Made by a program: the position numbers and the translations under genes
DNA from: Diadema setosum
Taxonomy: Eukaryota > Echinodermata > Echinoidea > Diadematoida > Diadematidae
DNA length: 64,000 nt
Assembly (NCBI RefSeq): GCF_964275005.1
Contig: NC_092689.1
Span: 11,455,479 to 11,519,478, forward strand
Direction: 5' to 3'
Shown: positions 15,018-60,931 of the stretch, piece after piece
Position numbering within the stretch: position 1 is the stretch's first letter
Layout: each line of letters opens with the position of its first letter
The notes under the pieces: model-generated
What the model was told of the DNA's origin: nothing
Database searches by the model: none
Seen by the model: the letters and a program-made list of their open reading frames with translations, nothing else

Positions 15018-15022
15018 GACCA
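15018..15022. repeat. Left target-site duplication GACCA of the foldback element
   Basis: GACCA immediately precedes the terminal TGTGGAGCC. The same five bases follow the right terminus at 21029-21033. Confidence 0.7.
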
Positions 15023-15029
15023 TGTGGAG

Positions 15030-15250
15030 CCGGGAAATGTGCAAACGCCGGGAAATGTGCAAACGCCTGGAAATGTGCAAACGTCTCGCCGGGAAATGTG
15101 CAAACGCCGGGAAATGTGCAAACGTCGTGCCGGGAAATGTGCAAATCTCTAAATTTCATCAACGGGAAATGTGCAAACGTGACGCCGGGAAATGTGCAAA
15201 TGTTCAATTTTGCCGGGAAATGTGCAAAACGTCGCCGGGAAATGTGCAAA
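15030..15250 (+). repeat. Left terminal minisatellite array of the foldback element
   Basis: About ten copies of core CCGGGAAATGTGCAAA occur with spacers that alternate between 18-, 22/23- and longer periods. Extended units carry TCTCG, TCGTG or GACG between cores. Two units have long AT-rich spacers, and these are mirrored at matching places in the right array. The core is nearly invariant while the spacers differ. Confidence 0.95.
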
Positions 15251-15359
15251 CCATTCATTTCACCTATATTATGTAGAGATGGAAGAGAAACTCTCAATCA
15301 AAGCTGCGCACGAACCATTACCATCTTTACCACCTGTCTTAGCGACCATCTGTCTTGTT

Positions 15360-17135
15360 TTTTTTTTATATTACATTTTCAGCATTTTCTTGCAAACCCT
15401 ACAACGAATTTTCACCAGATTTGGCAGATAACATCTTAATGGTGATATGATCGTAATTTGTCAAAATAAGCCCCCCCCCCCACACCAGTCCTAAGGAGGG
15501 GGGGGGGGGGACTTGAAGCCTCAGAGTTCCTTAACGCTTGATTTTTTCTCTTCATCTGTCGAACCGAAAAAGAAAGAGCTAATTAAGTTAGTGCTATGAA
15601 GACATTAATGACTAAAATTTCATGTTTGATTATGGCGGACCCAGGGGTGCCCTGATCGGGAGTGAGGGGAAGGGGGGGGGGGGGGGGTTAAAGCTTCACT
15701 TTTAACATCCCAAAAATCTGGATTTAAAAAAAAATCTTTTTTCTGTCAAACCGAAAAAAGATAGAGCTAAGTAACACTGTTAGTGCTATGAAGACATTAA
15801 TGTGATTAATGAATGAAATTTCATGTTTGATTATGGCCGATCAAGGGGTGCCCAGATCGGGGGGGGGGGGGGGGGGGGGGGTGATGGGTGGAGGGGGCTA
15901 TTCCACATTAGCATCTTCTTGAAATATCTATGAGGGATTTTCACCAAACTTGACAGATAGCAAGATTATGGTAATAGTTATGATCTTATTTTGTTCAAAT
16001 GAGCCCCCCCCCCCACTTCCCCCACCGCCGAAGGGGGGGGGGGGGTGGGGCTGCGGGGCCCGGGTTGAAGTTTCAGTGTCCCCAAAACTCTGGATTTTTT
16101 TAAATCTTCTTCTGTCAAACCGATAAAGATAGAGTTTAGTTAGTGCTATGAAGATACAGCGTTAATGAATGAAATTTCATGTTTGGTTATGGCGCGGATC
16201 AAGGGGTCTCCAGATCGAGGGGGTGAGGGCAAGGAGAGGAATTTTCCACATTTTCAGCATCTTCTTGAAAAATCTACGACGGATTTTCACCAAAATAAGC
16301 CAGTTCGGAGTTCCACTTTGAGCATGAGCAGAAACAAGGTCATTCGGACCAACAGGCATGTTGGTTTTTAAATTCACTGGGATAAGCATCTGTCATGTAA
16401 TGATTATTCATGTAATCCTTATAAATGCCGCTTGCCAGCACATCCACCTGACAGCAAAAGTGGTATTTGGCAATATCAATAGAAAGAGATTGTCAATACA
16501 TCCAATGCAAAATAATGAAATGGATGCTGTCTCAAGTGTGAATTGACAGATCATTCTGCTCATCTGGTCTACGCAAGTTTATTCTTTGTTTGAACGGGAT
16601 TGATGGATCCCATAAATTGTTACGTAAAGCTTATCCATTATGTCGCACTGAAAACGAGTGAAGTGCCCCTAACCAACTGAGAAAAAAGAAAGGTCATTCG
16701 TACCAATGTGCCCATGAGCTAACTCCGAACTGGCTTATTGGCAGATTGCCTCTTTACGGTGATATGCACTTAATTTGTTAAAATGAGCCCCCCCCCCCCC
16801 CCCCATACACACACACACACACACCGCTTAAGGGGGGGGGGGGGGTTGAAGCCTCGGAGTCCCTAAACTCAATTTTTAATCTTCTTCTGTCACACCGGAA
16901 AAGAGAGCTTAGTTAGTGCTATGAAGACATTAATGCCTGGAATGTTATTTCACGTTTGATTGTAGCAGATCGAGGGGTGTCCGTATGGGGGGGGGGGGTG
17001 AGGGGGAGGAGGGGGGATTTTCACATATTCTGCATCCTCATGAGAAATCTTTGACGAATTTTCACCGAACGTGGGAGGCAGCATCTCTAGTGTGATAGAA
17101 TCCCACTTTGTTCGAAGGGGCAACAAGTCCAAGTT
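15360..17135 (+). repeat. Left inner satellite units (plus orientation) with C/G hairpins
   Basis: The recurring order is TTTTCACCAAA, TGGCAGATAGCATC, AATGAGCCCC with poly(C), spacer, poly(G), TTGAAGCCTCAGAGTCC, CTTCTGTCAAACCG, GTGCTATGAAGACATTAATG, ATTTCATGTTTGATTATGG, ATCAAGGGGTGCCC. The landmark GTGCTATGAAG occurs near 15592, 15783, 16142 and 16919. With the nested insert removed, the normal spacing is about 335-360 bases, and one unit is shortened to about 190. The homopolymer lengths are probably unreliable in assembly. Confidence 0.85.
16298..16735. mobile_element. Nested 438 bp MITE with TA duplication
   Basis: The terminal inverted repeat AGCCAGTTCGGAGTT lies at both ends (left from 16298, right ending 16735), with a TA at 16296-16297 and 16736-16737. 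The internal subterminal words GGTCATTCGGACCAA and TTGGTACGAATGACC are also inverted. Removing the element restores the unit sequence CACCAAA-TTGGCAGAT seen in neighbouring satellite copies. A TA duplication with short TIRs fits a Tc1/mariner-type non-autonomous element. There is no coding capacity. Confidence 0.85.
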
Positions 17136-17149
17136 GTTCCCCTTCCCTA

Positions 17150-17815
17150 AAGCTAGGGATAAGACCAGGGTAGCCCCCACGTCATTTAGTAAGCAGACGT
17201 GAAATTTCATCAAAGTATAGATCTACCTTCTAAAAATGTGATAAGAATGTGTTCTATTACTCTTGGTTGTATAGAAAATTTCTTTAAAAAGTATGTATTC
17301 CGGTTTTTTTTCATATGTATAGGGTTTTCAATAAAATTCTGTATTCCACCCGAACGACCCCACCCCCTCGTGTTGGTCCCTTTCAAGTTCAAGGGGCGGA
17401 GATGGGGTGGGGGGGGGGTCCATCTCCACCCACCTTAGGGGTTGGGGCAGTGCTCATCTAGACAAATTGAGGTAATTTTACCAGATAAATACGCTACGCT
17501 ACGTTTCAAGCTTGGCAAATATCTATAAGGGTTTCAAGAAGAAGCTGAATATGTGACAAATCCGCCTCCGCCGCACTTAACATTAATTCATGAATTAACT
17601 TACCATAACAGGCACCAGCACTCTATTAGCTCCATCATTTTTGTATAGGCTTTTTTTTTTTTTTAAAGCTGATATATGATTTTACTATCCGAGGGATGCG
17701 TCTTGAGTTTTCAGGAAAAAGATAAAAAATGTGAAAACTAAGACTCCTTCCTACCCACTCCCCTTTTTGGGCATCCCTTCATCTGTCATAGTAAACTTGA
17801 ACCTACATCATGCAT
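17150..17815. other. Unpaired centre of the foldback element
   Basis: This is the region between the two oppositely oriented satellite blocks. It contains short remnants of satellite words (GAAATTTCATC near 17207; a G-run and C-rich pair near 17395-17430), but I see no gene, no long ORF and no mirrored partner. Confidence 0.5.
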
Positions 17816-17969
17816 TAACTGTATTTACAGTACTATCACCATAAAGACGCTATCTGCCAAGTTTGGTGAAAATTCGTCATAGATTTTTCAAGAAGATGGA
17901 GAAATCTGAAAGATGGAGAAACCTGGAGAAAATTGAAAATCCCCCTCCTCCCCCTGGTTACAGCTCGTT

Positions 17970-18946
17970 ATTCCGAAGGTTCTTATTCCGAAGACTGGTT
18001 AATCCGTAATGAGCCTTCGGAATAACGAACCTTCGGAATAACGCCACAAATTTTCAGATTAACGAACCCTTTTTCATTTTCGGATTAACCCTAACTTACC
18101 TGGGCTATTTAGAGAGCTTGAATTCTTGGGGGGGGGGGGGCATTATGCCCCCCTTCAGATCTCGGCCGTTGATCGCGCGATCGCCGCAAAATTTTGCATG
18201 AACATAAAGCCGGATGTAATCTACAAGATTGTTTAGTTAAATTTTCAAAAAAAATTGCATTTTCTATTTTAGATAAATTGATTATGCAAATACAAAAAAA
18301 AAAACACATTTTCGTCTGAAATTGGCTAACAAAAGCTTATGGAATGCTGATTTTGGTGTAAATATTCCTAGTGACATTTCAAACATTTGTGCGTTACAAA
18401 AAATCAGTATCAAAATTAATTTCTTATGTTTTTTATTGTTTTATCAATTTTTTATATATTTCCTTGTTTTTTCGAACTTTTGTTTTTGCAGTTTTTTCAG
18501 TAGAATTTGTCATACAAATTTTTTGAAGCATAGTTATATTAAAATAAATTGATTTCAGCCATTAGAATTAAAAATATGAATTTTATATGAATTAATTGAA
18601 AAAAACAATTTGTATTGACTTTGTACACAAATCACGTTTTTGAGCAATTTTGGGGTTGACGAACATTTTATGAAGGAGCGTGGCTTCGGAAAGGTATGCC
18701 CGGGCGCGACAAATTTGGTCTCAAAAGTTGTGCGAGACTTGAAATTAAGAAGTCAGCTAACGGCGCGGTCAAAAAAATTTACGCGCCGGAATGGTCGCGG
18801 AATTCGTCGGGGGGGGGGGGGCATTATTCCCCCCCCCCCCCCCCCCCCAGGTAAGTTAGGGTTAACGAACCTCTATAGGTATAGGGACTTTGCGTGTTTC
18901 GAATTAACGACCCTTCGGAATAACGAACCTTCGGAATAACGAAGAG
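17970..18946. repeat. GAACCTTCGGAATAAC repeat cluster interrupted by a TTAA element
   Basis: GTTATTCCGAAGG and its complement alternate at about 17970-18087 and 18860-18946. The cluster is itself palindromic and split by the element at 18089-18861. The same family forms a larger palindrome at 35315-35690. Confidence 0.75.
18089..18861. mobile_element. Nested 773 bp TTAA element (piggyBac-type MITE)
   Basis: The termini CCCTAACTTACCTGGG and CCCAGGTAAGTTAGGG are perfect inverted repeats, flanked by TTAA on both sides (18085-18088 and 18862-18865). TTAA targets with CCC termini are characteristic of the piggyBac superfamily. Next to the termini are long G and C runs with CATTAT, which pair with each other. 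There is no transposase ORF, so it is non-autonomous. Confidence 0.85.
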
Positions 18947-20024
18947 CACCCCTCCCCCTCACCCTCACCTACCCCCGATCAGAGCACCCCGAGACCCGCC
19001 ATAATCAAACATGAGATTTCGGTCATTAATGTCTTTACAGCACTAACTTTTTCGGTTCGACAGAAGTAAAAAAAAACAACAAACAAACAAACAAAAAAAA
19101 ACAAAAAACAAGAGAATATAGACTCTGAGGGTTCAACCCCCCCCCCCTCCTCGTCGGCGGGGAGGGGGGGGGGGGATTCAATTTAACAAATTAAGATCGA
19201 ATCACCATAAATATACTATCTGCCAAATTTGATGAAAATCCGTCATAGATTTTACAAGACTATGCAGAAAATGTGGAAAATCCCTTTCCTCCCCCTCACA
19301 CCCCTTATCAGGGCACTCCTGGACCCGTCATAATCAAACCTGATATTTTAGTAACGATATTGTCTTCATATAACGTAGTTCCATATTCTTCGGTTCAACA
19401 GAAGAAGATTAAAATTCCAGAGTTTAGGGACCTGAAACTTCAACTCCTCCTCCCCCCCCCCTCTTTTGGCGGTGGGAGGGGTGGGGCTCATTTTACCATA
19501 TACATGCGTAAGATCATATCACCGTAAAGATGGTATCTGCCAAGTTTGGTGAAAATCCTTCTTGAGATTTATCAAGAAGATGCAGTAAATGTGGACAATC
19601 CCCCTCCTCTCCATCACTCCCCCCCCCCCCACCCCCAATCAGGGCACTCCTGGATCCGCCATAATCAAACATGAAATTTCAGTCATTAATGTCCTCAAGG
19701 CACTTACTTAGCTCTATTTTTTTTTTTGTTCGACAGAAAAAGATTTTTAAAAAATCCAGAGTTTAGGGACTCTGAGGCTTCAACTCTCCTCCCCCCTTTT
19801 CGGCCGGGGGTGGGGGGGGGGGGGATTGGGGGCTACTCAATTCATAAAGATCATATCACCGTAATGAGGCTATCTGACAAGTTTAATAGTGAAAATCTGT
19901 CCTAGACTTTTCAAGAAGATACTGACAACGTAGAACATCCCTCTCCTCCCCTCATCCCCCCCCCCCCCCGCGATCCGGACGCCCCTGGATCCGTCATAGT
20001 CAAACATGCAATTTCAGTCATTAA

Positions 20025-20373
20025 AGGCATAATTTACCATTTGCAGATGAAAGCATTAGTGCTTTAAAATAGTTCTAAAATGTGAGTTAGGGATAGAAAC
20101 AACCACTGTCAAAATTTGAATCCGTAAAATCGATGTTAAGTGTTGTTAAATACACAAAATGTGAACAATAGTTATAATAAAAATGTTTCCAGACTAAACC
20201 GTATACAGTTACGGTTTACTGAGAAAAACCCTGATATCTCCTTATATTTTAGGTTTTATTGCAAATATTTCATATGGTAGGATGTTTTATGATACAACAG
20301 ACCTACACATATGCATAAAATGTGATATCTTGAACATTTTTGAAATCACTGCTCCCAAAGGTAAACTGGACCT
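20025..20373 (-). mobile_element. Nested 349 bp TTAA element (copy 1 of a three-copy family)
   Basis: TTAA at 20021-20024 and 20374-20377 flanks termini AGGCATAATTTACC and GGTAAACTGGACCT. The insertion splits the satellite landmark CATTAATGTCTTCATAGCAC exactly at TTAA, so removing it with one TTAA restores the consensus. The same sequence recurs in the opposite orientation at 32928-33269 and 51633-51965. No coding capacity. Confidence 0.9.
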
Positions 20374-20785
20374 TTAATGTCTTCATAGCACTAGTTTAGG
20401 GACTCTGATGCTTCAATTTGAAGACTCCTCCCCACTTATGGCCCCGTGCCCTGCATCCCTGGATCTGCCATTAAACGTGAACTCCTGTCATCAATATCTT
20501 TAAAGAACCAACCTAGCTCATTCTTATTTGGTTATATAATACAAGAAGAATTTTGATAATACCGTAGTTCTGGGACTTTGAGCCCCCCTCCCCTTTTTCG
20601 GGGGGGGGGGGGTGGCTACTATATAAACAAATTGAGATCCCATTGCCATAATCGTGCTACCTGCCAATTTTGTTTAAAATCTGTCAAGGATTTCATTAAG
20701 AAAATCTAAATGGCGGAAGTTCATGGGCAGTTCTGATGTGGAGTTTATCTACTATCTTTATACACAATATCGCTAAAGTAAATGA

Positions 20786-21028
20786 TTTGCACATTTCCCC
20801 GCGACGTTTTGCACATTTCCCGGCAAAATTGAACTTTTGCACATTTCCCGGCGTCACGTTTGCACATTTCCCGTTGATTAAATTTGCACATTTCCCGGCG
20901 AGACGTTTGCACATTTCCCGGCGTTTGCACATTTCCTGGCAAGACGTTTGCACATTTCCCGGCGTTTGCACATTTCCCGGCGAGACGTTTGCACAATTCC
21001 TGGCGTTTGCACATTTCCCGGCTCCACA
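20786..21028 (-). repeat. Right terminal minisatellite array of the foldback element
   Basis: About eleven copies of TTTGCACATTTCCCGGCG, the reverse complement of the left array unit. They show the same 18/23 alternation and the same odd units (spacers AAAATTGAACT, GTCACG and TTGATTAAA) in mirrored order. Units carry a few substitutions (ACAATTCCTGG). Confidence 0.95.
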
Positions 21029-21033
21029 GACCA
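21029..21033. repeat. Right target-site duplication GACCA
   Basis: A perfect copy of 15018-15022, directly after terminal GGCTCCACA. Confidence 0.7.
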
Positions 21034-26228: not shown

Positions 26229-26448
26229 CTGACTGACGAAGCTACTGACATGAGAGCAAGTTGCCGCCCACTTTTAGTGCAGGCCGTGCGCAAAGGAGAA
26301 GGCAGCGCCGATCAACCCAAACTTACGCAGGCATCATTTACGGGTGAAGCCGTTGCCGAGGAGAGTTCTGTGAATCCCCGTGTGCTTGTGAACATATCAG
26401 TCATAACAAAATCAGAGGACCTGAACGAGAACATCGACTGAAAACAAA

Positions 26449-27324
26449 ATGGAGTCGCTGCTCCGTTTCGCCTGCCTCGTAGCAGGTCTGCTGGCTGTCC
26501 AAGCCCAATGCCCACCGTCATGGCAGAAAGTGGAGAACAGCTGCTACAGGGTTTTCGGACAAAGTATGTCATTTGACATGGCTTCACAAATGTGCAAAAG
26601 CTTCGTTGGATGCGATGGGATTTCCCCTGGTCACCTTGCCTGTCCATCATCGTACCAGGAGCAGAGGTTCGTCAGGAAGCTGAGATTCGAGATTCTGCGT
26701 CCACTGAGGGGTTTCCAGATGGGTGAGGGGCAGCGTCTGCGACCTCAGACTGTGTGGCTTGGGCTGAGACTAGGACAGGGTGCTAACACTACCTGGGAAA
26801 GCACAGAGATGTACGACAATGCTGCCATGGCGCAACACTGGGGTGCCAACCGACCAGGCATGGCCGCCAGATTTGACCCCACTGAGATGCGATGGAACGG
26901 CAGGTGCGCCGTTCTTCCCGGCCAGATGCAGATGAACGGAGCCATGCAGAAATGGGGACACCAAGCCTGCAACATGCGATTCCCCTTCATCTGCGAGATC
27001 TCGGCACCTGGCATCTCTAGTGGTAATGGTACATTCGGCGCTGATGGTGGTTTCAACGCAACAACTGGTTTTGGACCTCAGCAACCCGCCAATCCTCCCC
27101 AGTGGCCGGGCACTGGCGGCGGCGCTGGCGCAGGTAGGGGTCAAGGTGGAGGTGGAGGCAGGGTTCCAGGTGCAGGTGCAGGTGCAGGCACTGGCGGACG
27201 ATTTCCCCCCAACACTCCTGGAAACACCCCACGGTGGCCGACAAGACCGAACACACCTCCGAACCCAAGAGGACCAGGCGGCCCAAGACCCCGACTCTAC
27301 CAGCAGGCCTACGCCCAACCATAA
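26449..27324 (+). CDS. Intronless spicule-matrix-type CTLD protein with basic Gly/Pro-rich tail (gene E)
   Basis: This is a complete 291-residue frame with an in-frame upstream TGA at 26422, so the ATG at 26449 is secure. Residues 1-20 form a signal peptide (LACLVAGLLAVQAQ-like core). Residues 21-184 are a CTLD with cysteines at 21, 32, 49, 55, 65, 153, 174 and 182 and the diagnostic VWLGLRLG and FPFICE motifs. EPN/WND calcium-ligand motifs are absent, so sugar binding is unlikely. Residues 185-291 are low complexity: Gly-Ala-rich, then Pro-Arg-Asn-rich, with eight Arg and almost no acidic residues after 200. Sequons lie at N113, N193 and N203. The layout matches the basic spicule matrix proteins (the SM29/PM27/SM50 group); which member it is cannot be settled here. 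The third-position GC content is far higher than its surroundings. It is probably secreted by skeletogenic cells and occluded in calcite. Confidence 0.85.
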   Translation: MESLLRFACLVAGLLAVQAQCPPSWQKVENSCYRVFGQSMSFDMASQMCKSFVGCDGISPGHLACPSSYQEQRFVRKLRFEILRPLRGFQMGEGQRLRPQTVWLGLRLGQGANTTWESTEMYDNAAMAQHWGANRPGMAARFDPTEMRWNGRCAVLPGQMQMNGAMQKWGHQACNMRFPFICEISAPGISSGNGTFGADGGFNATTGFGPQQPANPPQWPGTGGGAGAGRGQGGGGGRVPGAGAGAGTGGRFPPNTPGNTPRWPTRPNTPPNPRGPGGPRPRLYQQAYAQP

Positions 27325-32595: not shown

Positions 32596-32927
32596 ACCCA
32601 TCTCGCCCGGCCGAGCACACAATATTATGTACACCTAGACGCCGAGATAGATCCAAATTTAGAAATGCATATTACAAAGTAAAAAAAAAAATAGTGGAGG
32701 CAAAGGAAGAAAATTGATTAGCGACAGAAAATACTCCATTGAAACGTCATCCGAAATGGACCAATAAAAAGACTCAACTTTGAACCTAGAACCTTGAAGT
32801 GATAATCAATTTCAGTAGCTCCTTGGAACCATCCCGGGATGGTGAAAATGTCCAATGTCAGTTTGAGGCGGCATGGTGAACAAAACAAGACCCAGAGTAA
32901 ATCTCACTTGTGTAGGCCCTACATTAA

Positions 32928-33269
32928 AAGTATTGTTTACCATTGGGAGCAGTGATTTCAAAAATGTTCGAGTTATGATGCAAATGTGTAGGTCAGTTGT
33001 ATCACAAAACATCCTACCATATAAAAATTTCGCAATAAAGCCAAAAATATCAAGAGATATCAGTATTTCTCTCACTACACCATATCTGTAGACGGTTTAG
33101 TCTAGAAACAATTTTATTATAACTATTGTTCACATGTTGTATATTTAACAATACTTAACATTGATTATAATGATTGAATTGGCTGTTTCTATCCCTAACT
33201 CAAATTTTAGAACTATTTAAAGCACTAAAACTGGGTTTTTGTTTCATCTGCAAAGGGTAAATATCGCCT
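32928..33269 (+). mobile_element. 342 bp TTAA element (copy 2)
   Basis: TTAA at 32924-32927 and 33270-33273 flanks termini AAGTATTGTTTACC and GGTAAATATCGCCT. The interior shares GGGAGCAGTGATTTCAAAAA, ACAAAACATCCTACCATATA and TTTTAGAACTATTTAAAGCA words with the copies at 20025 and 51633. The right end abuts the 3' tail of the retrotransposon remnant. Confidence 0.85.
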
Positions 33270-33294
33270 TTAAAAGGCAGCGTGCACAGTGCAA

Positions 33295-35314: not shown

Positions 35315-35690
35315 GTGTGTTATTCCGAAGGTTCGTTATCCCGAAATGAAATCAGGTTCGTTTTCCCAAAGGCTCGGTTATCCGAAAATGTGTGTTTTTT
35401 TTTTAACCATTTTCGAATGATGGCACCGTATAATATATTATTTTTGGCCTAAAGAACCTTCGGATTAACGAACCATATTTCATTTTCGGATTCACGAACC
35501 TTCGGAAAAAACGAACCTTCGGAATAAGGCCACAAGTGCTCAGAATAACGAACCCTGTTTCATTTTATTTTCTGATTTAACGAACATCTAAGTATACGAA
35601 ATTAGTGTGTTTAGGAAACACAAACCTTCGTATTAACGAACATTAAGCCTACTTCGTTTTCGGATTAACAAACATTCGGAATAACGAACA
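35315..35690. mobile_element. Palindromic GTTATTCCGAAGGTTCG repeat element
   Basis: The left part carries GTTATTCCGAAGGTTCGTTA and ATCCGAAAATG words. The right part carries their reverse complements (TTTCATTTTCGGATTAACG, GAACCTTCGGAATAA) several times over. It is the same family that interrupts the foldback element at 17970-18946. It ends AACGAACAT at about 35690. Confidence 0.75.
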
Positions 35691-35820
35691 TCACGACGTC
35701 GACTTTTATCAAGCTTTCTGAGCGATCCATGTCGTCTGAAACAGGGTCGACTGTCTGAAACAAGCAAAGTTTCGGCATCTATGCTCTATGCATATTAAAT
35801 AAGGACACTTTCTTAACTTT

Positions 35821-37132: not shown

Positions 37133-38504
37133 AAATATTTGAGCACGATAACATTTAATGACACATTCGAAGAGCAAACTAATACAAAAGAGAAAAAGGA
37201 CGACATGATGTATTTTGCCATTTTTGCTATTCATTTCATGTAAGAGATTTTGCAACCTTGGGCGTAAAATTTAGAAATTCATCATAATTTTGCTGTCCTT
37301 GTAGTACAATTTACACCATCTTATACATGTTTATATATGTGTATATACTATATATCATATATAGATATATATTATAACATAATTCTTCAATGGAAGGTAG
37401 ACGTTTATGGATTCTCATGTATATTTTTTTCTCTATGGCCAAATGTCCTAATGAAATGAATGGGTAGTGTTAACAATACTCATTCCGAGAATAGGTAATT
37501 CAAATAAAGTTTGTAATGCAATGAGCACGTTCCACAGAGATAACCAAGATTGTTTGTCAAAGGTCGGAGTGATCTACTGAAACAAAATTTGGTGTGACGT
37601 AAATTTATGTTTCGATAATTTTGAAAAAGATAAATCATCACGAAACTGGAACGTGTGCATTTTGTTTTTGTCGTTGAGAGTTGTAATCAAATCAATTGCT
37701 CGTTCGCATGACTCTATATCTCGTGTTATTTTCGCTCCATCAGAAATGATGAGAACTAGTTACATCCAGGGATGTTTGTGCTGTATCCAGTGACAACTAA
37801 TAAACTGAGCGATTTAAGGAAGAGTCGGAAGGGTGATGGAGAGGGGGGTAAGAGTGCTCTTCTCAAGTAACTCTTCAAGAGCGATAATAGGGTCTCCACA
37901 TGTCTCCGCCCTACACGGTATCGCCTAAATGGCGTTATTCCCCAGGTCGGAAGGTCATCATTACCAGCCCAGTTCCGCCCAACGGATTTACGTGGGACCT
38001 GCGAGGATGATTCACCAATAGCAGCCCGTGTGCACGTTCACTCTCACCCCACCCCCTCCTTACTGTATCCACCTGTATCTTCGACATACTTTGCACCCAC
38101 TTAACCCCTCTGTCCACCCGTCCCCTTTTCACTCCCTGGTTATCGCTGTCCTTGTTTTCCTTATACCAATCCCCTGTGTCCAAACGTGAAACTAATTCGG
38201 GCTTATGACGTAAATATCTACCTTTAACTCCGTCAACATCACGTTCTCCTTCATTGACGCATGGACCCAACCACTAATCCATGGTCGACGTACAAGGATT
38301 TTCATGTGTAAACTCATAGGGTTTGAAGAAACCAAGAGGACTCCCGACTGCATCCTTCTTAGTCCGGCCTTCCATATTAAACAGAACAGAGTTATCAGGG
38401 TTTTCTCTCTTCCCAAGACATCAAAAGAGGCCGTACTGCAGTGGACTTGTGTTCAACAGGAAAAAGACACTAATACTGTGATCACCTGAAATTGATAAGC
38501 GACA

Positions 38505-38843
38505 ATGCTTCGATTAGCCATCTTCGCCGTCCTTACCGCGGTCGTAAGCGCCTGCCCGTTCGGGTGGTCGCAGTCCGGTAGCTCATGCTACCGTATCTCC
38601 AACAAGCCCGACACGTGGGTTGGAGCTGCACGAGCTTGCAGCCGCTTTAGTTCTTGCGCGTCCGGTTTTGCCGGTCACCTCGTGGCCATCACGACGCACT
38701 TCGAGAACCAGCAGGTCATGGACGTCCTCAACTTCAACAACATGGCACACAACGAGACATGGCTCGGACTGAGGACCCTGGCGGGACCCGTAGCTTGGGA
38801 GAGTGGTGAAGCGCTAAACCCTGCCCTGAGGAACACCTGGCAC
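38505..38843 (+). CDS. Spicule-matrix-type CTLD protein (gene C), exon 1
   Basis: The ATG at 38505 has an in-frame TAA directly upstream (38496). Residues 1-16 (MLRLAIFAVLTAVVSA) are a signal peptide. Residue 17 opens the CTLD with CPFGW, then SCYR (C28), C45, C51, GHLVAI, NETWLGL (sequon N83) and VAWESGE. Coding continues to NTWH at residue 113, followed by CAC/GTGAGT, an excellent phase-0 donor. Past this point the frame runs only into intron-like sequence before a stop at 38931. The second half of the domain is found at 41202-41441. This intron interrupts the CTLD itself, unlike the SM30 intron. Third-position GC is high, as in gene E. It is probably a secreted skeletal matrix lectin-like protein; the paralogue is not recognised. 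A weak TATA-like TATTAAA at 38375-38381 is the only promoter hint. Confidence 0.8.
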
Positions 38844-39195
38844 GTGAGTAGCCTATGCTTTGAACAGTCAATAACGGTGGTGGGGTTAGTTGGGGATCAA
38901 AGGTTGACTGATAAGGAAAATAACATGTTGTAAACATGAAGAAATGACTTGCGAGAGAATAAACCCGTGCACATTGTTAGGAATAGGCCTATATCGCTCT
39001 TACTTCTTTTTGTCTTCACTGCTATTGCCGATGAATTTGTATTGAGGCTTTGATATTTGAAGGGTGTGGAATATTAAGAATACGAGGATGAGTTCTTTTA
39101 GTTAATGTTTCCTCTGTGTTGAATAATCGAGCGTGGTCTGCTTATGATGATACCGATATTATGGGCATACAAATTTAACCGCTGCAGCTTATAGA

Positions 39196-44517: not shown

Positions 44518-45581
44518 ATTATACATGTAGACATATATTTGTCTATTGATTTATCTATACACATATACATTCACCCCCGCCTCCAAGACTCATCAAACTA
44601 TCTCATATGCACTTTATCATTCGAGACCTGTCTATCCCACCATAAGCTCAGATTTAGACGATGATGCTGTAGTCATGTGTTTTTCGGTCTTCAACCACAT
44701 TAAAATACGAGGTTGAGGCCTCTATATCAGTCATCAGGAATGTGGAAAATCTTTTGAAAAATAAGTGTCATAACAGTTCCTCCCTCCTCGTAATTCCAGC
44801 TTAATACTCTCATGGGAATGCCCCTTATACACGAACTTCAGCAATTAACTCATTAGCTTTTTGGAGTTTTGTGTTTAGTTATCGTCATATCCAGATATCG
44901 GTATACTTTTGAGATGTATTTTAGAGGGCGCTTTCGCCGGCTGCGGCCTCACAGATGAAAGAAATTGAGCTGTGACATTGGTTAGTTTATTAACCCGAGA
45001 TTCTACTCTAATACCAATGAGTGATTTCCAATATTCTTAAGTGAAACTTATCAATTTCTATCGCATAACGTGTGGCGCCTTTTTCTTGTACCTTTTCATT
45101 CTCTGTGTATAACTAATAGTGCTTTATGGCGTGAAGTACTGTCATTATATTTCACTTAATTATGCAATATCTTAAAATCGGTCATTCAATGACCATATAT
45201 ACATTCAGGTGCCTCTTCAATAAAATTTAACACACTAAAATAGTCAGGAAACCTGAACAGAAAATTACATTATGAGAATTTTTGCTCGCTTTTTTTTTTT
45301 TAATACACATTCACACCATACAATTGAAACGAAAACACGAAAGCACAATAGATAAGGAATGATCGTATAGAATGGACATGTCATGGTTATGGTCACTGAA
45401 AGGAAAATTTACCCCAAGTATACATGAGGATTTAATGACATAAGTTTTACACATCAGTAAAAATTGAAGGAAAGTAACTTACGCAGAAGTTAAACTGATA
45501 CCAGGAATCAAAATCAGTAATATGTAAGCAATGCATCCTGGGATGTCTTTCATTCTGTCGACTCAAGCGCTACTGCCTTCA

Positions 45582-45732
45582 GGGGCGGATCCAGGAATTC
45601 CGTAAAGAGGAGGCGCATTTACAAAATTAAAGGGGGCGCACGCGCCCCCATTTTTTTCTTTATATATCTATTTTGTTTTAACAAAAAATAAAGAGGGGGT
45701 GCGGGCCCGGTGCGCCTCCCTCTGGATCCGCC
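45582..45732. mobile_element. Short MITE with GGCGGATCCAG ends
   Basis: The left end GGGGCGGATCCAGG and right end CTGGATCCGCC are inverted. Subterminal AGGAGGCGCA and TGCGCCTCC also pair. The interior contains a small hairpin GGGGGCGCACGCGCCCCC. Confidence 0.8.
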
Positions 45733-48652
45733 ATTGACCTTTAATCCCGCACATGATGAAGCAATAATACGGATCCTACACGACATCGAGCAAATCACAA
45801 TATTTCTCAAACATATCCGCCCCTGCCTAGAGAGAGAGAGAAAAAACAAACAAGAACAACAAAAGTAACAAATTGCCAGTGACAGTATGCCAAACCTCTA
45901 AGTACCGTGGCAACATTATTTATCTATAGCAATTGGATGGAAGTCAAGATGGGCTATATAAAGCTTTTTTAAGTTGACTTTGCGCCAGCAGTGAATTATA
46001 AAGCATGTGTCTACTCTCGGAATAGCCTTATTTATCACATGCGAGGTGCAACGAGAGGTCGAAGGTGTTTGGAATGGTTTTTTTTTTTTCTGGCACGGGC
46101 ACACACACTTTTTGTTTTATGATATTCTTTATTTGAATTTTATTCGATATTTAAGTCTCATGTTCACAATGAAATTGATATGAACAAAAATAAGCAGCTG
46201 TATTCTTCTCTCGTGTGTTGCTAAATCACATTTCTTTAGACAGGTACAATATTTTTGAGGGTTTTTTGGTTGCAAATCATACCATGTATAAAAAACAAAA
46301 ACAAAAAAACAATCGACATAAAGGGCTTCATGAATCTCAGAAAAAGCTATCTGATCAACTTAATCAAGCCAATCCATATTTGCTTCATTACACAAACACT
46401 TTTGCTGCTAAATCACCTTGTTTTTTAACATACTTTTTTTTTTTTGCAGAGCTTACCATATATACAAAAATCATATAAAATCCATCTATAAACGCGTCTT
46501 TGACGATCAATTAATACTGCTCATTCACTCATAACATGTTATGTGTCTGTCATATGAGAAATGTTATTAAAAACAAACCTATTGTATTGGCCTACTTATT
46601 TTTATTACTGCGTATGTTTTCATCGGGCATGTCCCGGTGAGAGGCATGAAGAAACATGGAATTACTAGGTGCTTTGTGCAGATTTGGTAACGTCCAAGGG
46701 AGAGCAAAGAATAAGAAATTTATCAAGAAAACATTTTCTGTTTATATCTCGCTCAGGAAGTCCCGAACGAAACAACTTTAAGGCTTGGCAAAATGACACT
46801 CTCACGCCTACGTTCACATGACTAGCTAAATGACTAAAAGAACCAATAAAAAATAAAAAAATAAAAAATCTTTCCGCTTGAAATACTGACATCATGTGGT
46901 CATCATTAGCATCGTTTCCGGGAATAACTGTATAACGCTGTCTTTTAAACTTTTTCTGAAGAAGCCGCAGGTTATAAAGACTGAAGAAAAGAAAAAACAA
47001 AAAACAAAGTGAGGTGGAAACTCTTAATCATTATTGCGAAGGGCATGGCGTGGGTGTAGCCTGTCATCTCTGAAGATAGATGATTTCGTGCTTGAAATGA
47101 CCGTTAAAGAGACAATGTACCTCATGTAATATGAATGTATAAATATTTCTCTGTGTGTGTAGTTTGTCATCACCGATCATTACTTAACCTGACGTTATTA
47201 TCACATCCGATTTCATATTCTATTCATTGATTTTAAACTACTATCTTTCCTACAACCAGAAATAACATCAACAGCAGTTTCATTATTATCTGAAAAGACA
47301 TACAGAAACGAATACCCCCCCCCAAAAAAAAACAACAACAACAACAACAACCAACCAAAAACAAACAAACAAACAAACAAACAAACCTAAGATCCCTTGG
47401 GTTAGGAAAAGAAAGACTTGACAAAAAGAAAAAGATCTAGGAAAAAGGAAGAAGAAATATTCCAATTAATAGAGGGAGGAGAACAAGAACAAAAAGATAA
47501 TAACCATTAGAAGATTATGCTATTTAATCCCTTTTTCTTTCCATGGAAACAAAACAGTTCGTCAACAACTACGATGGAGTCTCCTAGAGTCCGTTGTTTT
47601 GAGAGGTGCCGTTTGAGGATGTTCGCATTAAGGGCGGAAGATCCAAGGCTGAAAATAGTAACCAGTCTTGTCGTCACGGATGACAGCTTAGCAAGAGGGG
47701 AGATATCTAACTTTTTGCGGCAGAGGTTGAGAAAATGTCAAAGCTCAACGACTTAAAGGCAGTAGCCATCGTGTCCACACCCTACAGACATGGCCAAATT
47801 TAGCCTATATATAAAGATGACAACCTTCATGTGATCTTATTATTCAATATCATTTATTCGATATTATCAAAGAGCGTTTTAATATCGAAATCAAAAATCC
47901 TGATGAAAGCTGCAGTTCAGTTGGAGTTTTTAATAGAATGTTTGAATACTGAAACTAAGACGTTCTGATATTACATAGAAGGCGCGCTTTTTAGTTAAAA
48001 TCATAGATCCCTGTCTTTTTCTATATCAATTGATCATTTAACAATCGTATAAAAAAAAGTGAAGGTTTCGTTCTTAATCATACGATGAGAATACTGCTCG
48101 ACTTGGAAACAAAGTAAATGTATTCTTTGTCAGAAGTTGAATCAAACTAATATGTCTCCCTATCAGTAACCTCCACAACTGTCATTCACAGTTATTTCAC
48201 CAGTGTTTCAGTTGCACTTTCAGTAAGTTTTATTTCTCCACTTGTACAAAATAGAAAAAAAAATCAGTATGACAAAATAGAAAATAAGTATGATAAACAC
48301 AAGTCATCCAAATATAAACAAAAGCTATCAATATACAAATATGTTTGTAAATGGTACGTATATTCATGGCATATCTTAGAGTATGCAAGTGAAGGAGACC
48401 GTTATCTAGAAGCATATCTCGTGACTTGGGTAACGGCCTCCAGATATTATGGCTTGAAACAATTTTCTCTCTCTCTCTTTTTTTTTAACTGAAGAAACAG
48501 AACACATATACACATACAATAAATAACGTAAAACTTTCAAGTATTATCAATGTTATTTTACCGAAAAGGACAATACATTGGGGATAAAACAGGACAGAAA
48601 CGAGAACAAGGGACAAAAATAAGGGGGTACATGAATAGGAAAAATAGAGAGA

Positions 48653-51632: not shown

Positions 51633-51965
51633 AGCCACTATTTACCGTTAGGAGCAGAGATTAAAAAAAAAAATGTTTTAGTTTTCCCATACTTCAGTCG
51701 TATCACAAAACATCCTACCATATAAAAATTTCGCAATAAAGCCTAAAACGTAAGGAAATATCACTAATTTTTGTAGACGTTTTATTCTAGAAACAATTTT
51801 AGTAAGAAATTGCTCATATTTTGTATATTTGAAAATTCTTAACATCCATGATACTGATCAACATTTTTGCATTGATTATTTCTATCACTAACTCACATTT
51901 TAGAACTATTCTGACGCACTAAAGTTTTTTCTCCTTCGTCTGCATATGGTAACAAACAGATCCCT
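51633..51965 (+). mobile_element. 333 bp TTAA element (copy 3, decayed)
   Basis: Left TTAA (51629-51632) and AGCCACTATTTACCGTTAGG are intact. The right flank reads TTGA instead of TTAA. The interior shares CACAAAACATCCTACCATAT, AAAAATTTCGCAATAAAGCC and TTTTAGAACTATTC with copy 2, in the same orientation. Confidence 0.8.
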
Positions 51966-60191: not shown

Positions 60192-60902
60192 CTACGGGCC
60201 TCCGACGTCCGTCCTGATGAGCAGTCCGTTGTCACCGAATTCGACGTGGTTCTGCATGATTGCGTGCGGTGCACTCAGGAGCATCCCTGGGGTCATGGCC
60301 GGGGTGTTTCCGTTGCCCTGGAGAGGTGGGTTGACCGGCATTGAGCACATGAAGTACATGGGCTCGTCGCAACGTCGTACGAACCACTGTCCCATGCGGT
60401 TCATGCCGGCGCAGTAGGAGTGCTGCTGGTCCAAAAGCTGCAGGTTAGGTTCACCAGGCGCCCAGTTGACGTACGTCAACGGTTGTTGCGTCGTGCTGTA
60501 TCCAGCCGGCCACTTCCAGCCCTCGTACCTCTCCAGTTGCTGGTTCCAGTAGTTACGCAAGCCAGTCCAGAACGGAATGTCAATAGCGTTTGGCGTTGAC
60601 GACAAGCTCTTGAGGTGGGAGATGACGGCGTTTGATGACGGCAAGTCTGGGATCGTCATGACGCCGCCGAGGACGGCGACGCCGCAAGGAGCATTCTGTT
60701 CGCACATGAGCTCGGCATCGGACCATTTCATGGCCCTCGGAATCATTTTGAAACATTGCTGACCGAGCAGGAACCATCCTCCTTTACATTTTGCCGAGTA
60801 TGGTGTGTTGGGTGCGTTAGGTGCGTTGGGTGCGTTGGGTACGTTGGGGGCCTGACTGTGACACAGAGCAGGTAAAACCAGCAAAAACGCCAACAACTTC
60901 AT
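60192..60902 (-). CDS. Intronless CTLD protein with N-terminal Pro-Asn-Ala repeat (gene D)
   Basis: The complete 236-residue frame has an in-frame upstream TGA 27-29 bases before the ATG. Residues 1-17 are a signal peptide (MKLLAFLLVLPALCHSQ). Residues 19-34 hold the repeat PNVPNAPNAPNAPNTP. The CTLD spans 39-188 with cysteines 39, 50, 67, 73, 164, 178 and 186. It contains FWTGLRNYW and NWAPGEPN; EPN (151-153) is the mannose-type calcium-ligand triplet, but WND is replaced by WFVRRC, so full calcium/sugar binding is doubtful. The tail after 188 is Pro/Asn/Met-rich and ends NGLLIRTDVGGP. There are no N-glycosylation sequons. The proline repeat sits before the lectin domain, not after it as in SM50/PM27-like proteins. 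It is a spicule-matrix-type or related secreted C-lectin, possibly the orthologue of a described urchin 'C-lectin' biomineral protein; I cannot confirm which. GC-rich codons match genes C and E. Confidence 0.85.
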   Translation of the reverse strand: MKLLAFLLVLPALCHSQAPNVPNAPNAPNAPNTPYSAKCKGGWFLLGQQCFKMIPRAMKWSDAELMCEQNAPCGVAVLGGVMTIPDLPSSNAVISHLKSLSSTPNAIDIPFWTGLRNYWNQQLERYEGWKWPAGYSTTQQPLTYVNWAPGEPNLQLLDQQHSYCAGMNRMGQWFVRRCDEPMYFMCSMPVNPPLQGNGNTPAMTPGMLLSAPHAIMQNHVEFGDNGLLIRTDVGGP

Positions 60903-60931
60903 GACTGTTTTTCGTGCCGATAACTTTCAGC
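60903..60931 (-). promoter_or_regulatory. 5' leader block shared with gene B
   Basis: GCTGAAAGTTATCG begins 29 bases before the ATG, identical in position and at 13 of 14 bases to the leader of gene B at 10979-11007. Confidence 0.55.

Follow-up and report, generated by a model that had tools for sequence, protein, structure and literature searches.

Within a 64,000-nt stretch of Diadema setosum contig NC_092689.1 (positions 11,455,479–11,519,478; the whole stretch is hereafter called the window), a unit at 15023–21028 carries long, mirrored, internally repetitive ends and is flanked on both sides by the same 5-bp sequence, GACCA. A preliminary description had called this unit a complete foldback-type transposon without a transposase, with minisatellite ends of 10 and 11 mirrored copies; its borders proved exact to the base, and both repeat counts matched. 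The element is built as follows:

15023..21028, + strand: whole element, 6,006 bp, with termini TGTGGAGCC...GGCTCCACA; its left end is of type A and its right end of type B
15018..15022: left target-site duplication GACCA, directly outside the element
21029..21033: right target-site duplication GACCA, directly outside the element
15023..15250, + strand: A-type end, the terminus plus 10 GGGAAATGTGCAAA-core repeats spaced 18,18,23,18,23,32,23,28,22
15251..15372 (approximate), + strand: A subterminal segment, the first part of which aligns inverted with the B subterminal segment
15373..17112 (approximate), + strand: inner satellite units of up to ~350 bp in forward orientation, with poly-G/poly-C runs
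17113..17824 (approximate), + strand: middle segment between the arms, common to many copies
17825..20677 (approximate), − strand: inner satellite units in inverted orientation
20786..21028, − strand: B-type end, with 11 repeats here versus 12 in many copies, one outer 18-nt spacing being missing

Allowing up to two mismatches, GGGAAATGTGCAAA occurred 10 times forward (15032–15250) and 11 times in reverse (20786–21019), with one stray match at 2435; when the whole window was shuffled, matches averaged 0.93 and never exceeded 3. Among the 25 longest of 217 inverted pairs, the arms formed repeats of 133 nt at 90% and 101 nt at 95%, and the inner arms paired over up to 138 nt at 71–87%. Landmarks of the inner satellite ran forward at 15556–17079 and in reverse at 17852–20677, switching orientation between ~17079 and 17852; the exceptions were six weak matches (17166–20048) in forward orientation, each with 5 edits. 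Runs of at least 9 G or C bases were concentrated in the element, which holds 20 of the 27 in the window. As expected of a foldback element, long inverted ends made of internal tandem repeats flank a middle, and a target-site duplication is accompanied by many copies carrying both termini.

We searched the genome assembly (912.7 Mb, 102 contigs) for these sequences. The exact 18-nt repeat occurred 467 times forward and 454 times in reverse, and the 23-nt terminus, at up to two mismatches, 211 times forward and 210 times in reverse, with no match to the same terminus read backwards. Positions were listed for 100 of these 421 places. From stretches around ends on contigs C1–C6 we assembled a sample of 31 two-ended copies, one of which is the window copy. 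L015, L016, L026, L027, L028 and a second right end in L034 were dropped before this count, their matching opposite end being missing or compound. The terminus TGTGGAGCC reads at the left in 30 and at the right in 29 of the 31 copies, most of which were chosen for that terminus. Other copies sharing both termini, the absence of which the preliminary description had named as a possible refutation, thus number 30 in the sample. The satellite-built inner domain, which it had taken as special to this copy, is not: about 12 of 13 other copies compared match in the satellite arms. Several copies, including L020, L021 with L037, and L043, have middles of their own. The window element is one copy of a real, large transposon family. 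Among the dropped loci, L015, L016 and L027 (contig 1, ~33.96–34.06 Mb) carry repeated right ends with identical flanks, a pattern that suggests local duplication of element pieces.

An exact 5-bp duplication flanks 26 of the 31 copies, and four more (L009, L018, L037 and L038) have one with a single mismatch. When the left flank of one copy was compared with the right flank of another, 5-bp matches fell to 0.97% (9/930). The 26 exact duplications are 79% G/C (103/130 bases) versus 43% (448/1040) in the flanks, and their middle base is G or C in every case (26/26). A palindromic target was considered and rejected: the column consensus looks symmetric, but single sites are not palindromic, with 42 of 156 pairs versus 46 in control flanks. 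Some of the insertions hit dispersed or local repeats, so uninterrupted relatives of these sites were present among the sequences examined. Three repeat copies (in L009, L010 and L011, all within one long copy) match the joined flanks of L048 straight across the junction; in two of them the single 5-bp site is unchanged, and in the third it differs by one base. L014 and L043 have comparable single-site relatives with small differences, and the joined flanks of L041 match window positions 45580–45736 (87%), where three bases are inserted at the target site; that stretch of the window is thus a repeat that served as a landing site elsewhere. The window copy itself has no paralogous empty site in the one assembly searched, because its flanks are unique in the genome. 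Together with the shared termini, the 5-bp duplications and the single-site relatives of other insertions bear out the earlier assignment to a complete foldback-type transposon.

The two ends of the element are of different types. Repeat spacing is fixed within an end type and differs between the types; many copies are exact and others have lost repeats. Type A has 10 repeats spaced as listed above, and type B has 12 repeats spaced 18,18,23,18,23,18,23,24,23,28,22; in the window copy the left (A) end is intact and the right (B) end is one outer repeat short. Both ends were typed in 28 of the 31 copies, all of them A+B, and in the other three one end was left untyped; L021 was typed B from a 24-nt gap at an unusual place, and leaving it out gives 27 of 27. 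Patterns diagnostic of each type, at up to three mismatches, found 157 A and 153 B ends genome-wide and none when read backwards. With 100 listed places per type (200 of these 310 end places), 72 facing pairs lay within 30 kb of each other, 71 of them A+B and one A+A; many of the copies fetched for the sample are among these pairs. In 10,000 shuffles of the labels, A+B pairs averaged 36 and never exceeded 53. The sole A+A pair lies on contig 8 near 23.91 Mb with a third A end nearby and may be compound. Among the pairs at listed places, A–B spacing has a median of 5.5 kb and a range of 3.2 to 23.2 kb, and long A+B pairs outside the sample include C10:34063485-34078468, C11:2759485-2770894, C11:25261199-25271780, C12:20682000-20694989, C17:5231525-5248190 and C38:277604-286941. 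These results establish two end types, which almost without exception occur as facing A+B pairs. Either transposition may need one end of each type, or all copies may descend from one A+B master.

No Pfam match was found in six frames of window positions 15300–20752 at E 0.05, in agreement with the earlier view that this copy lacks a transposase. Across the 31 copies, 167 stop-to-stop frames of at least 90 amino acids lay outside the arrays, and 20 selected frames were searched against Pfam, 18 from the 31 copies and two from the dropped loci L027 and L028. In the 18 frames from other copies there was no transposase, and only nested retrotransposon frames were recognized. Reverse transcriptase and endonuclease frames occurred in L029, L044, L027 and L028 and one Gypsy-like frame in L046; the remaining tested frames gave no match or weak matches under curated cut-offs. 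Six-frame searches of the copy-specific middles of L020, L021 and L043 likewise gave nothing in Pfam at E 0.05. Among the long copies, frames of the long interspersed nuclear element type occur in the 16.7-kb and 9-kb copies, the 10.8-kb copy has a Gypsy-like frame between 211-bp direct repeats, and the 23-kb copy was partly covered by the search: two of the six frames of its middle (L010) gave one below-cut-off match to a zinc-binding family, which we took as chance. The nested Gypsy-like element of L046 lies ~1.0–7.5 kb from the left end, has 211-bp direct repeats (97%) and carries an integrase zinc domain that precedes its reverse transcriptase.

From the exact termini, the G/C-rich 5-bp duplication, the many copies, the empty relatives and the paired A and B ends, we consider it highly probable that the element is a non-autonomous, foldback-type, cut-and-paste DNA transposon, whose A and B ends are joined by a transposase acting in trans and which inserts at 5-bp staggered cuts in G/C-rich DNA. 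Several observations weigh against this reading or narrow its basis. No transposase or autonomous copy was found, with 20 selected frames of many given to Pfam, and movement in trans is therefore only inferred. The 31 copies were chosen mostly for intact ends on C1–C6 and are not a random sample. L029 has no duplication, those of L013 and L023 lie within runs of C or G and carry little weight, and L021 and L037 share flanks and count as at most one independent event. Among 93 exact A ends, 66 have a B partner among the B places listed and 27 do not, and the A+B rule may reflect descent from one master copy rather than functional need. Finally, the arrays vary less than the middle, yet a test of shared versus single variants gave Fisher p = 0.14.

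For a trans-mobilized foldback transposon of this kind, we propose that a transposase made elsewhere would bind the repeated GGGAAATGTGCAAA sites, pair an A end with a B end and cleave at the terminal TGT/ACA. Insertion would then occur at a 5-bp staggered cut in G/C-rich DNA, with the gap filled by host repair. The palindromic satellite arms and the middle would be passengers or spacers, changing through unequal exchange and nested insertions.

Which transposase might be responsible was weighed against known families. The label of TU, the foldback family of Strongylocentrotus purpuratus, had been suggested for the element. TU shares its overall plan of outer tandem-repeat domain, inner domain and middle segment, and the host looks like a sea urchin, three of the six tested window frames matching C-type lectin, one exactly at the cut-off. 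TU elements, however, have outer repeats of ~15 bp and make 8-bp duplications, compared with 18 nt and 5 bp here, a comparison of described features rather than of sequences; the measured 5 bp would speak against the label, and membership in TU seems unlikely. Somewhat better placed, though still doubtful, is an integrase-like transposase of the Ginger type. According to PMC2836005, Ginger1 and Ginger2 have TGTNR ends, which the TGTGG of the element fits, and short target duplications; Ginger1 targets CCGG/CCGT, which are G/C-rich, and in Dictyostelium TDD-4 and TDD-5 duplicate 5 bp. The animal members that the paper describes, however, have duplications of 4 bp, in contrast to the 5 bp measured here. 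An integrase-type gene was not found in the tested frames, the sole integrase-domain match being the nested retrotransposon frame of L046. With ends that resemble Ginger and a duplication that does not fit its animal members, we assign the family to no superfamily.

Movement by a Transib/RAG1-like transposase appears improbable. Transib elements make G/C-rich 5-bp duplications, and there are 16 RAG1-family matches in the genome, but stretches around two near-identical RAG1-like copies contain no TGTGGAGCC and one two-mismatch core match each, the right ends lying beyond these stretches. Moreover, the Transib clade has mostly CA..TG ends and 2–5 bp duplications according to PMC12730594, whereas the element ends in TGT..ACA. 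The two RAG1-family copies, L049 (contig 1) and L050 (contig 11), share at least 5.4 kb at 99.85% identity and are possibly a recently mobile RAG1-like element. A hAT transposase is about equally improbable: hAT ends start with CA or TA, not TGT, and no hAT domain was present in the frames tested, even though the 5 bp of the element agrees with the 5-bp-duplicating group (hAT5), for which PMC12730594 describes families with such duplications. Two further eukaryotic superfamilies appear in the same paper: PlavakaA has TGT..ACA ends like those here and, unlike the element, 2-bp duplications, and IS3EU also duplicates short target sites, of 6 bp in the families described, which have ends TAYGG..CCRTA. 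That the unit is an inverted duplication of local satellite DNA and no transposon at all, as its repetitive, palindromic arms might suggest, can be given almost no weight: exact termini shared at dispersed sites with matched 5-bp duplications, together with the empty relatives, refute it.

Galileo, a member of the P superfamily in Drosophila, differs from the window family in the length of its duplication and in having a transposase, none being found here in the tested frames. It resembles the element in its very long, internally repetitive inverted ends, and its end repeats hold extra transposase-binding sites, a model that we adopted for the window element (PMC3688188). Galileo is the closest tested precedent for repeats in long inverted ends binding transposase, although its outermost binding site lies ~70 bp from the end, whereas here the repeats start next to the terminus (same source). 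Tetris, a foldback element of Drosophila virilis, is likewise non-autonomous, with modular inverted ends of tandem repeats, inner domain and middle, and no autonomous partner was found for it (PMC4079207). It differs in having repeats of ~220 bp that are a source of satellite arrays (PMC4079207), compared with the 18-nt outer repeat, inner units of up to ~350 bp and fixed A/B end pair of the window family.

The arms also contain nested inserts, which, like the difference between the A and B ends, the preliminary description did not mention:

16300..16738 (approximate): nested insert resembling a miniature inverted-repeat transposable element (MITE), with ends AATAAGCCAGTTCGGAGTT
17965..18945 (approximate): nested segment with TTCGGAATAACGAACC-type ends
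18090..18855: insert with ends CCCTAACTTACCTGGG...CCCAGGTAAGTTAGGG
20034..20374 (approximate): nested MITE-like insert, bordered by TTAA on each side

The insert at 16300–16738 is missing at that place in L014, L018 and L025, and that at 20034–20374 in L014, L017, L018 and L025; each is matched anywhere in at most two of the 30 other copies. The window copy probably landed as one unit, and it carries two MITE-like inserts that are missing from the copies compared at those places. L013, L024, L030, L041 and L048 match the outer parts of segment 17965–18945 without 18090–18855, which is present whole or in part in a subgroup consisting of the window copy, L014, L023, L025, L031, L039 and L044. 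In a tree of the middle (window 17113–17882) of 23 copies, from which L031 was left out, the other six subgroup copies cluster with L020, which lies outside the subgroup; this clustering suggests that copies continued to transpose once they had acquired inserts. In this tree the window copy has an end branch of 1.3%.

Median divergence from the window copy, measured in up to 19 of the 30 others, was 0.9% for the A array and 2.3% for the B array, 1.8–3.2% in the subterminal segments, and 4.4–5.6% in the satellites, middle and nested insert. The low variation of the arrays may reflect the choice of copies with intact ends. A set of end alignments in which the values for L019 and L020 point to misalignment was set aside. 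In a second slicing, cut at fixed distances and partly misaligned, the A subterminal slice was the most variable of all, contrary to its lower earlier value. Constraint on the ends is plausible from these comparisons; selection is not demonstrated by the variation data.

Elsewhere in the window, the short dispersed repeat of insert 20034–20374 has relatives at 32921–33273 and 51694–51952, and TTCGGAATAAC-type repeats at 35319–35694 are relatives of nested segment 17965–18945. The long frames that match C-type lectin lie at 26425–27324 (+), 38499–38933 (+) and 60192–60926 (−), the second being the one exactly at the cut-off; we take them to resemble sea-urchin spicule-matrix genes.

The repeat core GGGAAATGTGCAAA was not found in the literature searched. 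What is new here is that a known foldback plan is combined with two fixed types of end and with a chemistry, 5-bp duplication and TGT..ACA termini, that we assign to no superfamily; Repbase or Dfam may list the family under another name. In phage Mu and Tn7, unlike ends are needed together. By analogy, the look-alike ends of the sea urchin element could be functionally unlike, a 10-site A end and a 12-site B end both being needed, with G/C-rich 5-bp insertion driven by a novel integrase-type transposase, a conjecture that we regard as more likely wrong than right by a good distance. Having no gene of their own, foldback elements frequently go without a classification. This family offers concrete marks by which to find the transposase, namely a precise 5-bp duplication, G/C-rich target sites and an almost strict pairing of A with B ends, and it makes it testable whether arrayed end repeats choose which two ends join in an animal transposon.

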